DNA of 64,000 bases from positions 3,720,001 through 3,784,000 of the forward strand of contig NZ_CP064653.1 of NCBI RefSeq assembly GCF_015711015.1, written 5' to 3'. Source of the stretch: Methylomonas sp. LL1. Lineage in GTDB: Bacteria > Pseudomonadota > Gammaproteobacteria > Methylococcales > Methylomonadaceae. This document shows, piece after piece, positions 2,690 through 63,537 of this stretch. Made by a program: the position numbers and the translations under genes. The first letter of the stretch is position 1. Every line of letters starts with the position of its first letter. The notes under the pieces are model-generated. The model saw only the letters and a program-made list of their open reading frames with translations. It was not told where the DNA came from and searched no databases.

Positions 2690-3133
2690 ATGAATGAACT
2701 GGATATCGTGTTCTGGTATTGGTGGGTGCTGGCCGTCGGCTTTTTAGCCGTCGAACTGCTGGTGCCCGGCTTTTTCTTTCTGTGGTTGGCGGTGTCGGCG
2801 TTTGTGGTCGGATCGATATTGCTGATGATTCCGTCAGCCCCTTTGGACGTGCAATTGCTGTTGTTTTCAGTGTTGGCCGTGATCTCGATATTGGTTTGGC
2901 GGCGCTATGTCAGCGCCAAGTCGCAGGAAAGCGACCACCCTCTGTTGAATCAACGCGGCGCCCAATACATCGGCCAGACTTTTAATGTAGTAACCGCTAT
3001 CGAAAATGGCCAGGGTAAGGTCAAGGTAGCCGATGGTCTATGGAAGGTTCAGGGCCAGGATTGTCCGGCGGGGACCAAGGTTAAAGTGGTGGCGGTTAGG
3101 GGGACGGTGTTTGAGGTGGAGGTTTGCGGGTGA
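2690..3133 (+). CDS. NfeD-like membrane protein
   Basis: A 147-residue protein with two or three N-terminal hydrophobic helices (about residues 7-68, with GFFFLWLAVSAFVVGSILL) followed by a soluble beta-rich OB-fold-like domain (about 85-147), matching short NfeD-family proteins. It sits 3 bp after the stomatin-like gene, so the two are almost certainly cotranscribed and act together in the membrane. Confidence 0.87.
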   Translation: MNELDIVFWYWWVLAVGFLAVELLVPGFFFLWLAVSAFVVGSILLMIPSAPLDVQLLLFSVLAVISILVWRRYVSAKSQESDHPLLNQRGAQYIGQTFNVVTAIENGQGKVKVADGLWKVQGQDCPAGTKVKVVAVRGTVFEVEVCG

Positions 3134-3188
3134 AATGGCTTGGCTGTTGCCAGATGAATTTGCGTGATAATCAATAGGTAGTTTAACC

Positions 3189-3647
3189 ATGGCACATCTC
3201 AGCAAATCGGCAGCTACATTACGAGTGATGGGCGACAATCTAGTGCCTGACGAAATTAATTCTCTCCTTGGATGCCTTCCTTCAACGAGTTATGTCAAAG
3301 GCGAGGTTATTCGAGGAAAAAAATCAGGTCGTGACTTTACAATGAGAACTGGAATGTGGCGGCTTGAGGCTACTAGCTGCGAACCAGAGAACTTAGATAG
3401 CCAAGTAGCAGAGATACTAAGTCAGCTCACACAAGACTTAAACGTCTGGACGAACCTCAAAGATCGATTCGATATTGATCTCTTCTGTGGGTTTTACATG
3501 GAAGTGACAAATGAGGGAGTAGAAATATCAAGTGCGACACTTAAGTTGCTTGGGGAACGAGGAATTGCTTTAGGCCTAGATATCTATGGTCCAGTTAAAG
3601 AGAACACCTCCGCTGCGAAACCTTGGAAACGAAGCGTTAGCGAGTGA
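3189..3647 (+). CDS. DUF4279 domain protein with repeat-derived C-terminus
   Basis: A 152-residue protein that looks like the DUF4279 family (RSGRDFTMRTGMWRLEA-like core, then FCGFYMEVTNEG and a late GLDIYGP). Its function is unknown. Residues after about 140 (AAKPWKRSVSE) and the stop codon are encoded by the first bases of a 274-bp repeat element beginning at 3611, so the native C-terminus may have been replaced. AT content is higher than in the neighbours, which suggests transfer. It is not obviously in an operon with nfeD. Confidence 0.7.
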   Translation: MAHLSKSAATLRVMGDNLVPDEINSLLGCLPSTSYVKGEVIRGKKSGRDFTMRTGMWRLEATSCEPENLDSQVAEILSQLTQDLNVWTNLKDRFDIDLFCGFYMEVTNEGVEISSATLKLLGERGIALGLDIYGPVKENTSAAKPWKRSVSE

Positions 3648-3884
3648 AGGTTGAGTAGTCCCTGGAAGCCGTAGCGCCGGGCGGTTTTTCGACTAGAAAA
3701 ACTGCAAGGCATCGCGAAACGGCGTCGAGTCATGCGAGAGCCAAGGCTTTGATCCCCTTGTTGGGTCAAAGGCGAGGTGACGCGGACGGCCAGGGCCGCC
3801 GCAGGCAATCACGTGGCGGTGTAGGCGCGATTGCTAGCCAGGGATGGCTAGCAATCTTTCCCGCCGGAAGCCGACACTCGCCGA
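3611..3884 (+). repeat. 274-bp repeat element, copy 1
   Basis: Nearly identical (a few substitutions, no indels) to the inverted copy at 20071-20344. It contains a 12-bp perfect hairpin, GATTGCTAGCCA / TGGCTAGCAATC, at 3829-3856 whose loop differs between copies (GGGA here, AGGA in the other). The element starts CGCTGCGAAACC and ends CACTCGCCGA. It carries no transposase. A short ORF in reverse (from MPAAALAVRV) is conserved only because the DNA is. In both copies a protein gene reads into the same end and stops inside the element. Confidence 0.9.
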
Positions 3885-3906
3885 CGGCTCTTGAAGGTGT
3901 CGCTAT

Positions 3907-4154
3907 CGCGACGGCTTAATTTAATCGGGTACTCGCACCCGAAGGCGAGTTTCTTTCTTTTGCTCCGCCAAAAGAAAGAAACCAAAGAAAAGGCGGCCCG
4001 GATGCCGCTTGTTTCCTGCGTTCCTCGTTTTCGACGGGGGTTGCCAGAAGGCACGTCCCTGTACCTCCGGCAACGTGCGGCATCCATGCCGCACCCCTTT
4101 GGGCTGATCCCATCGAAAACTCCGGTACTCGGCGCGGCATACGGGAGAAACCCC
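3907..4154 (+). repeat. Structured repeat, copy 1 (plus orientation)
   Basis: The order of predicted stems is: P0 TCGGGT/ACCCGA (3925-3942); a 14-bp perfect hairpin starting GTTTCTTTC (3949-3982); closing stem GTTTTCGA/TCGAAAAC (4027-4034 with 4113-4120), which encloses GTTGCC/GGCAAC (4040-4045 with 4069-4074) and GTGCGGCAT/ATGCCGCAC (4075-4094). The same architecture recurs in copy 2 with changed but still paired bases. This points to selection on structure, either as RNA or as folded single-stranded DNA. Confidence 0.85.
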
Positions 4155-4279
4155 ATTCCATTGGAAAATTCGTCGTGCTAATTTGATGTTTGGTGTAGCC
4201 ATGTGGGGTACGCACCGCGTACCTTTTGGGTTGAGGCGTATAACCATCAAGCCGCGAAGCGGAACGATGCCGAAGGCAT

Positions 4280-4528
4280 GGGGTTAAACCCCTGATACCG
4301 CCCCGAGCATCGCAGTATTTGGCGAGAACAGCCCGCTAGGGGAGCAGCAGGGATGCTGCTCGTTTACGGAGGGGCTGGGAGCCCCTTCCGGAAACCCTCG
4401 CCAAATACGAGAAGCGCAGGAACTAGGCGGTAGCGGGGCGGCCTTTTCTTTGGTTGCTTTCTTTTGGCCGAGCAAAAGAAAGCAACTCGGTCGTCGGTCC
4501 GAGAACCGACTTTAAATCAGGCTTCGCG
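4280..4528 (-). repeat. Structured repeat, copy 2 (minus orientation)
   Basis: This copy is homologous to 3907-4154 but clearly diverged. Stems in plus coordinates are: closing stem 4315-4325 with 4398-4408 (11 bp), inner hairpins 4342-4361 and 4362-4395, a 14-bp hairpin 4453-4486, and outer hairpin 4494-4509. Every stem is kept despite substitutions, and several changes are compensatory (for example T-A to G-C in the 14-bp hairpin). It converges with copy 1 across a spacer of about 125 bp. Confidence 0.85.
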
Positions 4529-4671
4529 TAGCGTGTCTTATTATTTGCGCCTCAGTTTGAATCGCACCCTGCGCGGCAATTGCCTAATAGCAAATCCTAC
4601 GGCTTTCTGTATACATAGCCATACTCGCGGGATAGAATAACAATGAATTGACATTATCATATTTCCCGTAT

Positions 4672-5160
4672 ATGCCACAGTCTGCACAATCACCTACTCA
4701 AAAGGCTCGCCAAGTCTTGATTAATCATTGGGATGGTGAGCTGCCTATCGATCCGGCCGCGATTGCGGGAAAGCTGGGCATTTCCGTCAAACCGGTGGCC
4801 GGCTGCGACTATAGCGGCAAGGCTTATCAAGAAGGCGGCTTCGGGATTATCGAATACAACGATTCAGAATCGAAACTACGGCAGAGATTCACTATCGCCC
4901 ACGAGTTGGGCCACCATGTCATGTCCCACACCGATGCCACGCATCAATTTCGCGACGATCCCAGCAAGTTTAATCTTAACGTCGCTATCCCCGAAGAAAC
5001 TCAGGCCAATAAATTCGCCGCCGAGTTGTTAATGCCGAAATTGGCGATAGAACATTTCGTGTTTAACGAAAAAATCAGCTCCTTAAATAAGTTGGCGGAA
5101 TTATTTTCCGTATCGACGGTAGCCATGCAATACCGATTGAAGAACCTCGGCTTGCTGTAG
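4672..5160 (+). CDS. ImmA/IrrE family metallo-endopeptidase
   Basis: A 162-residue protein with a zinc-peptidase motif HELGH (His77, Glu78, His81 counted from the ATG at 4672) in the context RFTIAHELGHHVMSH, followed by EETQANKFAAELLMP, the classic second ImmA/IrrE signature. Relatives cleave repressors or anti-sigma-like regulators, often on mobile elements or in stress responses. An in-frame TTG at 4648 would add eight residues. I prefer the ATG because the helix KARQVLINHW begins shortly after it. No XRE repressor partner is adjacent. A membrane-protein gene follows 8 bp downstream. Confidence 0.85.
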   Translation: MPQSAQSPTQKARQVLINHWDGELPIDPAAIAGKLGISVKPVAGCDYSGKAYQEGGFGIIEYNDSESKLRQRFTIAHELGHHVMSHTDATHQFRDDPSKFNLNVAIPEETQANKFAAELLMPKLAIEHFVFNEKISSLNKLAELFSVSTVAMQYRLKNLGLL

Positions 5161-5168
5161 AAAAAACC

Positions 5169-5705
5169 ATGATTGGCGACAGCCCTAGCCCGCAATCGGA
5201 TTTGAGCGAAGGCAGCATCGCCGAAGAGCAATCGCTGCTGGGCAAGGATATATTGGAAGAGCAACAGCTGAAAAGAAGATTCAGGACATGGAGCTTTTTT
5301 ATCGCCTGGGCCTTGAGCATCGTCTTTTTTCTGGCGGTTCTTTGTTTTTCATATCGATTTTTTGCCCATCCAAATTGTTATTGGATAGCCAGAACTGTCA
5401 AATCGTCACAAGCCGCGGATCAAAAACCGCCAGTTCCCGCGGAAATTCATAAAACGGTCGATGGCGAGGGCCAGATGGTCAAAGAGGCCGTGCCGCAAAC
5501 TGCCTATCCGCTCAATCAGTTTCTTATCCTGCTTGGACTGTTATCGGCCATCGGCACAACGCTGGCGGTCTCGGTCATGCGTTTTTCATTCGCTAATGAT
5601 AAGACCTCCGAAAAAGACAATGGCGCAATACCCATCAGCCCGATTGCCTCTTCCTTGACTGAATTACTTAACGCGATCATTGCTTTAGTTAAGAAAGAAA
5701 AATAG
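5169..5705 (+). CDS. Hypothetical membrane protein next to the ImmA-type peptidase
   Basis: A 178-residue protein with an acidic N-terminal cytoplasmic region (about 1-38), a strong transmembrane helix (about 43-66), a periplasmic or loop region (about 67-118), a second helix (about 119-138) and a short charged tail. I recognise no family. It begins 8 bp after the peptidase stop, so cotranscription is likely; whether the two proteins interact is unknown. Confidence 0.6.
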   Translation: MIGDSPSPQSDLSEGSIAEEQSLLGKDILEEQQLKRRFRTWSFFIAWALSIVFFLAVLCFSYRFFAHPNCYWIARTVKSSQAADQKPPVPAEIHKTVDGEGQMVKEAVPQTAYPLNQFLILLGLLSAIGTTLAVSVMRFSFANDKTSEKDNGAIPISPIASSLTELLNAIIALVKKEK

Positions 5706-5833
5706 ACCTGCAAAATTCATTCTCGGTGCTCCGGCGCCGGAACGCATTCCTGGGCGCTCTGCATCCTTGCAAAATCAATTCCTTGGTACAATGCTGTCCA
5801 AGCAACTCACTCGACGGACAACCCCCAAAAGCT

Positions 5834-20009: not shown

Positions 20010-20675
20010 CAGTTTACCTCCGGCTTGGACGGTTTGTCCGTTATGCTAAATTTCAATACGCCGCTGACGATCGGCGAGTGTCGGCTTCCGGCGGGAAAGA
20101 TTGCTAGCCATCCTTGGCTAGCAATCGCGCCTACACCGCCACGTGATTGCCTGCGGCGGCCCTGGCCGTCCGCGTCACCTCGGCTTTGACCCAACAAGGG
20201 GATCAAAGCCTTGGCTCTCGCATGACTCGACGCCGTTTCGCGATGCCTTGCAGTTTTTCTAGTCGAAAAACCGCCCGGCGCTACGGCTTCCAGGGACTAC
20301 TCAACCTTCACTCGCTAGCGCTTCGTTTCCAAGGTTTCGCAGCGTCAGACCATCCTCTGTCACCACGCGGTAACGAACCGCATGCGGGCCGGGTTGCAAG
20401 GATTGGGTGGTGGCGGTCAAACGGTGGCGTTCACCCAGTACCAGGCGGGTGTCGCCGTTGTCGACCCGCTTGCCCTGCCCGTCAATCACCACTATCGATG
20501 GGGAACGCTCGCTGACATTGCCGCTGAACCAGAGCTTGACGGTGCCGTCGAAGGCGGCAATTTCGGCGTTATCCTTGGGTTCGGACTTTATCAGTACCCC
20601 TTCGGCATGGCTAATTTGGCTGATGCCGAGTAGCGAAATCGCGGCGAATAATGTTTTGAGAGTCATGATATTCAT
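20009..20675 (-). pseudogene. copC paralogue interrupted by the 274-bp element
   Basis: The 5' part (20345-20675) encodes a signal peptide and most of a CopC domain up to RVVTEDGL. The frame then enters the repeat element and stops after a few residues, giving a 124-residue product. The missing end, VSGVLKFSITDKPSKPEVN with its stop, is encoded at 20009-20070 beyond the element. Joining the two flanks directly gives an uninterrupted frame reading EDGLIVSGVLKF. Even before insertion the copper site looked weak: no His directly after the predicted cleavage site, and Leu where copC at 9223 has His111. Confidence 0.88.
20071..20344 (-). repeat. 274-bp repeat element, copy 2
   Basis: The inverted, nearly identical counterpart of 3611-3884. 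It lies inside a copC paralogue in the same orientation relative to the gene as copy 1 is to its gene. No target duplication longer than two bases is visible. No transposase is encoded, so mobilisation in trans is the likely mechanism if it is mobile. Confidence 0.9.
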
Positions 20676-63156: not shown

Positions 63157-63537
63157 GGGGGTGACATGGCTTCGACGTGGGTAGCAAAACCTCAGGTGCA
63201 TGCCGAGCACAGTACAGCTCGTAAAACCTACTGAAAAAAAGTATTCGCAAACGACGAAAACTACTCAGTGGCCTTAGCAGCTTAAAACCTGCACCACTTC
63301 TCTGACCAGATGTACTTATGCGTCTGGAGTTCCCTTCGGGGGGCGTTCAGGGATCATATTACATAAGATCGCGCCAGGGCTTAGTTCGGAGCCTGAATCG
63401 CTAAATCCAATCGAAATCGCTGTTGATCCTCTTGGCCCGACGGGTAGTCAACAGTTAAATTAAAAGCGCGGGATAAGCATGTAGAGCTTGTGGCGGAGTG
63501 CTTGCGGACGGGGGTTCAATTCCCCCCACCTCCACCA
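63157..63537 (+). ncRNA. ssrA: Transfer-messenger RNA
   Basis: It starts GGGGGTGACATGGCTTCGACG and ends in a T-arm and CACCTCC-ACCA. The 5' GGGGGTG pairs with the 3' CACCTCC to form the acceptor stem, and CCA is encoded. The tag reading frame at 63247-63285 encodes ANDENYSVALAA followed by TAA, a typical proteobacterial tag. It rescues stalled ribosomes with SmpB. Confidence 0.98.

Follow-up and report, generated by a model that had tools for sequence, protein, structure and literature searches.

The window, a stretch of 64,000 nucleotides from Methylomonas sp. LL1, holds two inverted copies of a structured repeat of ~250 bp, here named E. The initial annotation recognized two converging copies with shared stems at 3907-4154 (+) and 4280-4528 (-); alignment of the arms (145, 43 and 45 nt, with 77, 77 and 71% complementarity between copy 1 and inverted copy 2) bears out the coordinates and the inverted orientation, while the true limits lie slightly wider, at ~3897-4146 and ~4289-4537. 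The T-A pair of copy 1 (T3952-A3979) is indeed G-C in copy 2 (G4456-C4483), as had been noted, and both P2 hairpins are perfect. The features of the locus are:

3897..4146, + strand: E copy 1, from the GTGTCGC outer end to the P3 end at CGGGA (covariance-model match 3897-4168 and alignments)
3899..3912, + strand: outer hairpin of copy 1, GTCGC TATC GCGAC
3925..3949, + strand: P1 and PK1 of copy 1; P1 is 3925-3930/3937-3942, and the PK1 loop 3932-3936 pairs with 3945-3949
3949..3996, + strand: P2, A-rich linker and PK2 of copy 1; P2 is 3949-3962/3969-3982, and the loop end 3965-3969 pairs with 3992-3996 (PK2)
3997..4145, + strand: P3 of copy 1; 3997-4008 pairs with 4134-4145, with mismatches, and closes a branched domain with two inner hairpins
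4147..4288, no strand: spacer between the window copies, with a GGGTACGC/GCGTACC hairpin
4289..4537, - strand: E copy 2 (covariance-model match 4266-4537; limits from alignments)
4453..4486, - strand: P2 hairpin of copy 2, 4453-4466/4473-4486
4556..4569, + strand: TTTGAATCGCACCC, right terminal repeat of the subtype of copy 2

The outermost PK2 pair of copy 1 competes with P2. In the counted spacer of the window pair no ORF reaches 80 aa. The subtype of copy 2 sits in a ~325-bp unit (window about 4242-4576; also L092, L094 and L096) with terminal repeats GGGTGCGATTCAAA; a test for a left terminal repeat matching TTTGAATCGCACCC found none for the window copy. Duplications of 8-9 nt (CGCTGGCTA, GGAAAGTT) are seen by eye in two of four single copies of this subtype and are missing from the window copy. 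The subtype is apparently an E captured by a transposon-like repeat. Thus, the window pair may be an empty or nearly empty cassette of the kind described below, or two neighboring insertions that now lie side by side. In genome G415 the stretch 3134-5777 is replaced by ~127 bp, and in G413 only 14 bp separate the equivalents of positions 3120 and 5833.

Other features of the window are as follows. A ~279-bp repeat at 3606-3884, just upstream of copy 1, has seven further copies in the same genome at 99-100% identity, one of them at about 20071-20344 of the window, and occurs at 98-99% in G402, G413 and G408; judging from its copies, it appears to be a recently mobile, MITE-like element. An ORF with a HELGHH motif at 4648-5160, which we take to be ImmA/IrrE-like, adjoins copy 2 on a stretch that is absent in close relatives, and a tmRNA gene is found at 63157-63537.

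Fold and covariation of the repeat

Both strands of both window copies fold better than all 200 of their dinucleotide shuffles, with z scores of -2.9 (copy 1) and -6.3 (copy 2) as read and of -4.9 and -6.6 on the complementary strand; the shuffles favor the complement, clearly in copy 1 only. A structure of 84 pairs is derived from an alignment of 25 of 30 fetched copies of the own genome, five rearranged or partial copies having been dropped before the count. It includes the outer hairpin, P1 (whose loop pairs downstream to form PK1), P2 (whose loop pairs past the A-rich linker to form PK2) and the branched domain closed by P3. Over these 25 copies, 94.1% of 2097 cells are paired, compared to 82.0% in shuffles and 40-44% when partners are slid. 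Pairs that change on both sides number 39 (26.1 in shuffles), and cells changed on both sides number 239 (76.9 in shuffles, sd 7.0). The weakest measure is that of further pair types, with 68 compared to 62.3 and with 24 of 500 shuffles reaching the observed value. Both pseudoknots are 100% paired, with double changes at two pairs of PK1 and at three pairs of PK2 (four pairs counted). These figures are inflated by the relatedness of the copies and by the derivation of the structure from the same sequences; thus, the covariation is to be read as support and not as a probability. Within this limit, covariation is strong and includes two pseudoknots beyond the stems described initially. Selection on folding, as the initial annotation had argued from two copies, is borne out by the 25 copies and by further copies with paired changes, and the covariance model and covariation test that it had proposed yield many matched copies and paired changes above those of shuffles. 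The outer end of E is sharp, with GTGTCGC following T-rich DNA (80 of 125 copies anchored), and conservation on the inner side fades ~20 nt beyond P3 (115 of 125 anchored).

The lack of a named RNA family with this layout is confirmed for the window, over which Rfam release 15 has no match above the gathering threshold; at an E-value of up to 10, positions 3600-4700 give sub-threshold matches alone, none credible. The element might also have had no other genomic copies, or unpaired changes in them; instead, the copies are many and the changes paired. String and topic searches of the open-access literature found no description or name of E, which does not imply that it is unprinted elsewhere. 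A second insertion with hairpins of its own (the ACATCC..GCATGCAAATCGGC type) is found repeatedly within E, in several cases in or next to a hairpin (L056, L057, L059, L257:2565-2978, L276 and L285), which gives no more than an impression that folded DNA is its target.

Distribution, convergent pairing and cargo

In the 4.92-Mb genome of strain LL1, blastn with copy 1 gives 36 matches and the covariance model, at an E-value of at most 1e-3, gives 44, some of the latter being fragments or antisense partial hits. Across Methylomonas, E is present in 34 of 37 genomes, the own genome included (model search, E-value at most 1e-6), with at least 51-54 matches in each of nine genomes at this threshold; the model search of these 37 finds none in G421, G425 and G427, the last a 5.4-Mb genome of 100% completeness. 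In a sample of the phylum, at least 62 of 398 genomes carry E, again with the own genome included (E-value at most 1e-4, four candidates scored per genome). A scan with the core pattern returns at least 119 stretches, and the 80 matches listed include Methylomonas, Methylobacter, Crenothrix, Polaromonas, Acidovorax, Thiobacillus, Aeromonas, Lysobacter, Dyella, Rheinheimera, Silvimonas, Vogesella, Dechloromonas, Halopseudomonas, MAGs of Desulfobacterales and Desulfobulbus, and others. Shorter homologues (~195-290 nt) occur in f40, a family of another class, with one to three matches in each of 18 genomes; the P2 hairpin, linker and P3 recur in the f40 homologues displayed, and Rfam on 10 of the 18 loci identifies RNase P and tRNAs and nothing else. 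In many homologues of other genera (L121-L140), the inner hairpin has a recurring AACTCGCTnCGCTCAAACAG-like motif, and the motif strings tried have no printed mention in the open-access literature. Three viral contigs match the core pattern exactly. Carriage by phages or plasmids was considered and set aside, as copy 1 has no blastn match in PLSDB or INPHARED, collections from which near relatives of the window are possibly absent.

The arrangement of E was analyzed in 65 regions of 11 genomes of the genus, which were chosen by E matches, a few of them because a pair was already visible; matches are present in 63 regions of nine genomes, and 138 copies of at least 130 nt were kept of 142 (one short and three overlapping matches dropped). 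Neighboring copies less than 5 kb apart converge in 52 of 72 cases, diverge in 14 and are in tandem in six; inverted dimers and alternating arrays both occur. Spacers of the 52 convergent units span 97-4203 nt with a median of about 1.0 kb, and six of these units have short spacers of 97-272 nt. A single E is found in 9 of 21 regions of the own genome. Convergent neighbors also prevail in other genera, with 21 of 25 in one set and 15 of 22 in a second that was fetched partly because pairs were visible; 34 of these 36 convergent pairs have a spacer below 400 nt. Partner copies within a unit resemble each other little more than randomly paired ones do (0.79 versus 0.75; median partner rank 0.34, 44 units). 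Duplications of at least 4 nt at the outer ends are found in 5 of 52 units compared to a shuffled mean of 4.6, i.e., the target-site signal of a DDE transposon or MITE is not seen. A 3'-UTR common to both neighboring genes was likewise rejected as a general account of E, since one unit lies between the co-directional rsmA and adk.

Of the 52 convergent units, 45 enclose one or more ORFs that reach 80 aa, with 65 ORFs in total. In most units this cargo starts and stops close to E, and its G+C content is 0.41 (46 spacers above 400 nt) compared to 0.54 in the flanks. Family scans of the 65 ORFs, considered for the best 25 families of 41, 142 and 36, list REP-associated tyrosine transposases (RAYTs; six), Sll1717-type P-loop ATPases (two), IS3-type (two), IS110-type (two) and IS256 (one) proteins, and single matches that include QatA-like, PtuA-like, KAP, Mrr and dCTP-deaminase-like proteins and others. 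Ten cargo proteins, mostly large, were chosen for PADLOC models; five match at an E-value of at most 1e-5, two of them strongly (PDC-S20 and HEC-04) and one only via an HNH-type stretch shared with Cas9 models. By NCBIfam, one of ten cargo proteins (the ATPase of G407) is above the curated cut-off, three are below and six have no match. An enrichment of cargo in defense genes is at this stage an impression. REPs of the conventional GTAG type (GTAGGGTGGGCAC.., GTAGGTCCGATTA..) lie on either side of RAYT genes within E units and are also seen in the spacers of E pairs (L089:4811-5480; spacers of L087 and L086). A mobilizer gene linked to E was sought by clustering 1454 ORFs around 58 loci and is not apparent, no family being common to the E loci; judging by coordinates, the cluster found at most loci (32) is simply translated E, and the second largest is confined to five.

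Cargo swaps at conserved loci

Exchange of cargo was assessed in 45 comparisons at 12 orthologous, E-bounded loci, where each of the two 600-bp flanks had to give a blastn match of 100 nt or more and cargo was termed different when under 25% of either is covered. Cargo is different in 35 comparisons, partly shared in nine and the same in one. The rsmA-adk interval holds a RAYT gene in the own genome, an unrelated 292-aa ORF in G410 and the Sll1717-type ATPase in G407, and it shows no E match in 13 congeners whose fetched stretch includes both genes. Loci L189 (G418) and L198 (G417) have flanks of 98-99% identity and E copies of 95-98% identity in the outer two thirds; both copies of E are kept and similarity ends at the P3 end on both sides. 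On the left side, several mismatches precede the P3 end by ~25-50 nt; thus, this breakpoint could be inside E. In other comparisons, similarity continues roughly 20-90 nt beyond E. The rsmA-adk unit of the own genome has a left E that resembles that of G410 at the same locus, while its cargo ends best match the RAYT locus of G410 and G415 (109/128 and 69/124 positions), a locus orthologous in 16 fetched genomes. Thus, cargo has moved between E loci in this case.

Collapsed forms of the units are also found. G422 and G423 share a locus with flanks 99.5 and 98.3% identical and with unrelated cargo (598- and 555-aa ORFs); here the E copies differ as well and the similarity breakpoints lie outside E. 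The same locus in G408 and G401 is reduced to scars of 72 and 79 nt that consist of two outer hairpins around one P1 (in G401 with a match of the left flank only), and in G404 and G405 the outermost hairpin alone remains. Four scar sites are detected in 37 genomes, compared to none with a reversed-pattern control.

By comparison of genomes, then, E lies in convergent pairs with cargo between them, the cargo is swapped on conserved flanks, and one relocation and several collapsed scars can be traced. The convergent pairs, locus swaps, inner-end breakpoints and scars argue that E bounds exchangeable cassettes. Our favored reading, held with slightly better than even confidence, is that E forms the two inverted ends of small cassettes (E-cargo-E) in Methylomonas and that the folded strand is the recognition site. 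One single strand, probably that running from the cargo outward, would fold into the hairpins and two pseudoknots and would be recognized by a trans-acting recombination or processing activity, a putative enzyme. Cargo would be lost or replaced at the inner end of E, with E and the flanks staying in place, and deletion between palindromic parts may generate the scars.

The strongest competitor, which we consider a real but less than even prospect, is that incoming DNA exchanges the cargo by ordinary homologous recombination that depends on RecA. Crossovers would then fall in the conserved flanks or in E, and E would be passive, perhaps an insulator or mRNA-end structure kept for other reasons. 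The conserved flanks at swapped loci and the G422/G423 breakpoints outside E fit this mechanism, as does the lack of both a linked enzyme family around 58 loci and a target duplication at 52 units. It accords less well with L189/L198, where E is kept on both sides and cargo changes at the inner end, or with movement between non-allelic E loci, and it leaves convergent pairing and the kept fold unexplained. Breakpoints thus fit recombination in the flanks at some loci and not at others. In the minimal mobile elements of Neisseria (Saunders and Snyder 2002, as cited in PMC2649163), whole-gene cassettes are described as varying between strains at a fixed chromosomal locus, and the units bounded by E share this property, with different cassettes between the same conserved flanks. 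By contrast with these elements as cited there, the E cassette is bounded by a repeated, structured and inverted element of ~250 bp, and for one cargo the trail leads to a second locus of this kind.

A more doubtful alternative is that E pairs are landing sites, in which short-spacer dimers come first and RAYT-REP units, IS and genes are then repeatedly inserted and deleted with no exchange reaction. Short-spacer dimers are common in other genera and are present here, one locus has an allele with a 128-nt spacer in place of the 229-aa ORF of a relative, and IS and REPs are found in spacers. Such turnover would not be expected to leave cargo that begins and ends near E in most units, nor cargo of which, in the one traced transfer, both ends correspond to another E locus. 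Homologous recombination after uptake explains part of the data and landing-site turnover another part.

Strand, transposases and wider meaning

The strand on which E acts was addressed with 137 copies, i.e., the 25 above and 112 distinct ones of 262-285 nt, other lengths having been dropped. As first read, 62 G.U and 228 A.C are counted over a total of 11492 cells, numbers that are swapped on the complement. Among pairs that are at least 85% Watson-Crick, there are 126 A.C and 54 G.U cells as read, with A.C in excess at 33 pairs, G.U in excess at 12 and 34 ties (p = 0.0025). The complement folds more stably in 100 of 112 copies, a result to which composition may contribute. In the P2 stem of homologues from other groups, 69 A.C and 11 G.U are counted, mostly at a few stem-base positions, and much of this bias may be one inherited mismatch. 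One strand is, therefore, probably selected as a single strand, and it is likelier the one that runs from the inner to the outer end, opposite to the reading of the initial annotation; the same bias weakens a symmetric cruciform reading. RNase P RNA from 28 Methylomonas genomes served as a yardstick (RNAalifold; two truncated loci dropped) and has 7.9% G.U and 0.17% A.C, compared to 7.1% and 1.0% on the antisense strand; thus, G.U by itself does not reveal the strand. By the same method, E has 2.1% G.U and 1.1% A.C as read, and 1.8% and 0.4% on the complement.

These data bear on a further possibility, unlikely in our view, that E may be a functional RNA transcribed outward from the cargo, such as a terminator, a stabilizing 3' structure or another ncRNA, with the pair serving either cargo orientation and with mobility secondary. 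The pseudoknots, the strand bias toward the complement and the conservation of the core in f40, with its few matches per genome, would suit an RNA; against it, G.U is rare in E, where it makes up between 0.5 and 2.1% of the cells according to the strand and method chosen, compared to the 7.9% of RNase P RNA. This scarcity leans toward DNA.

Least probable is mobilization of E by Y1 transposases (RAYT/TIRYT type) as a REP- or TIR-like element, a comparison that the initial annotation had drawn from the inverted arrangement, with the suggestion that nearby RAYT genes be sought. RAYTs make up 6 of 65 cargo ORFs, E lies within 1.5 kb of 8 of 30 RAYT loci of the genus, and outside the genus a Y1_Tnp match is present in 30 of the 33 genomes that carry E. 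By contrast, none of 30 Y1 loci in those genera (30 of 61 Y1 matches; model built on the own genus) has E within 1.5 kb, and two of the 61 matches have an E match at a distance of ~3.5-3.8 kb. A single RAYT clade is repeatedly seen with E on both sides, its own-genome member having GTAG-type REPs of its own; it occupies one orthologous locus in 16 genomes, and its recurrence is thus mostly descent. Y1 transposases are an improbable mobilizer on these grounds. The likeness to REPs, REPINs and BIMEs with RAYTs holds for the intergenic location, high copy number, inverted dimers, alternating arrays and self-complementarity, and fails for the tags, as GTAG, GGAG or CGTC is beside the outer hairpin in none of the 71 copies (of 137) in which the hairpin pattern is recognized. 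Compared to REPs, given as 20-40 bp in PMC3733652, E is much longer, has two pseudoknots and has genes between its copies.

TIRtrons and TIRYT, as presented in Di Nocera et al. 2013 (PMC3733652) and in PMC6006769, are long inverted repeats, some self-complementary, that form dimers and clusters and have Y1 genes between some, traits that E shares. The GGGGWSAS motif, the consensus of some TIRs in these accounts, is absent from all 137 copies of E on either strand, no flanking E was found at the Y1 loci searched in other genera with E, and RAYTs are a minority of E cargo in Methylomonas. Families R26, R178 and R200 of P. fluorescens (PMC2718517) are described as intergenic repeats of 100-350 bp, to which E is likened by this description and not by sequence.

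A cassette system with a folded site of its own is that of integrons. Their cassettes are exchangeable, and attC sites are recognized as a folded single strand, lie in direct copies and have RYYYAAC and GTTRRRY boxes. Exchangeable cassettes and, as proposed here, a folded single strand as the site are shared with E. The E copies are, however, inverted and not direct (6 of 72 neighbors in tandem), and none of the 137 has the two boxes at opposite ends on either strand.

The new point is the arrangement, in which E pairs surround accessory cargo; the initial annotation had neither the cassettes, the pseudoknots nor the likelier strand. A bolder extension of the favored cassette reading, which we put forward tentatively and regard as less likely than not, is that E is the site of an unrecognized structure-guided cassette exchange, in which the pseudoknotted strand would mark the exact inner boundary and an activity in trans would swap accessory genes, some of them defense-like, with the same element present, mostly as short dimers, across much of the Proteobacteria. 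Even if homologous recombination alone exchanges the cargo, a structured repeat that paired changes preserve at the ends of cassettes still calls for a functional explanation. If the cassette reading is true, it becomes testable which activity recognizes a pseudoknotted strand and swaps genes where that strand has its inner end. In that case, a widespread repeat would mark a repertoire of swappable accessory genes in bacteria of soil and water, some of them antiphage-like and many with no family match, and the covariance model would provide a handle for collecting them.
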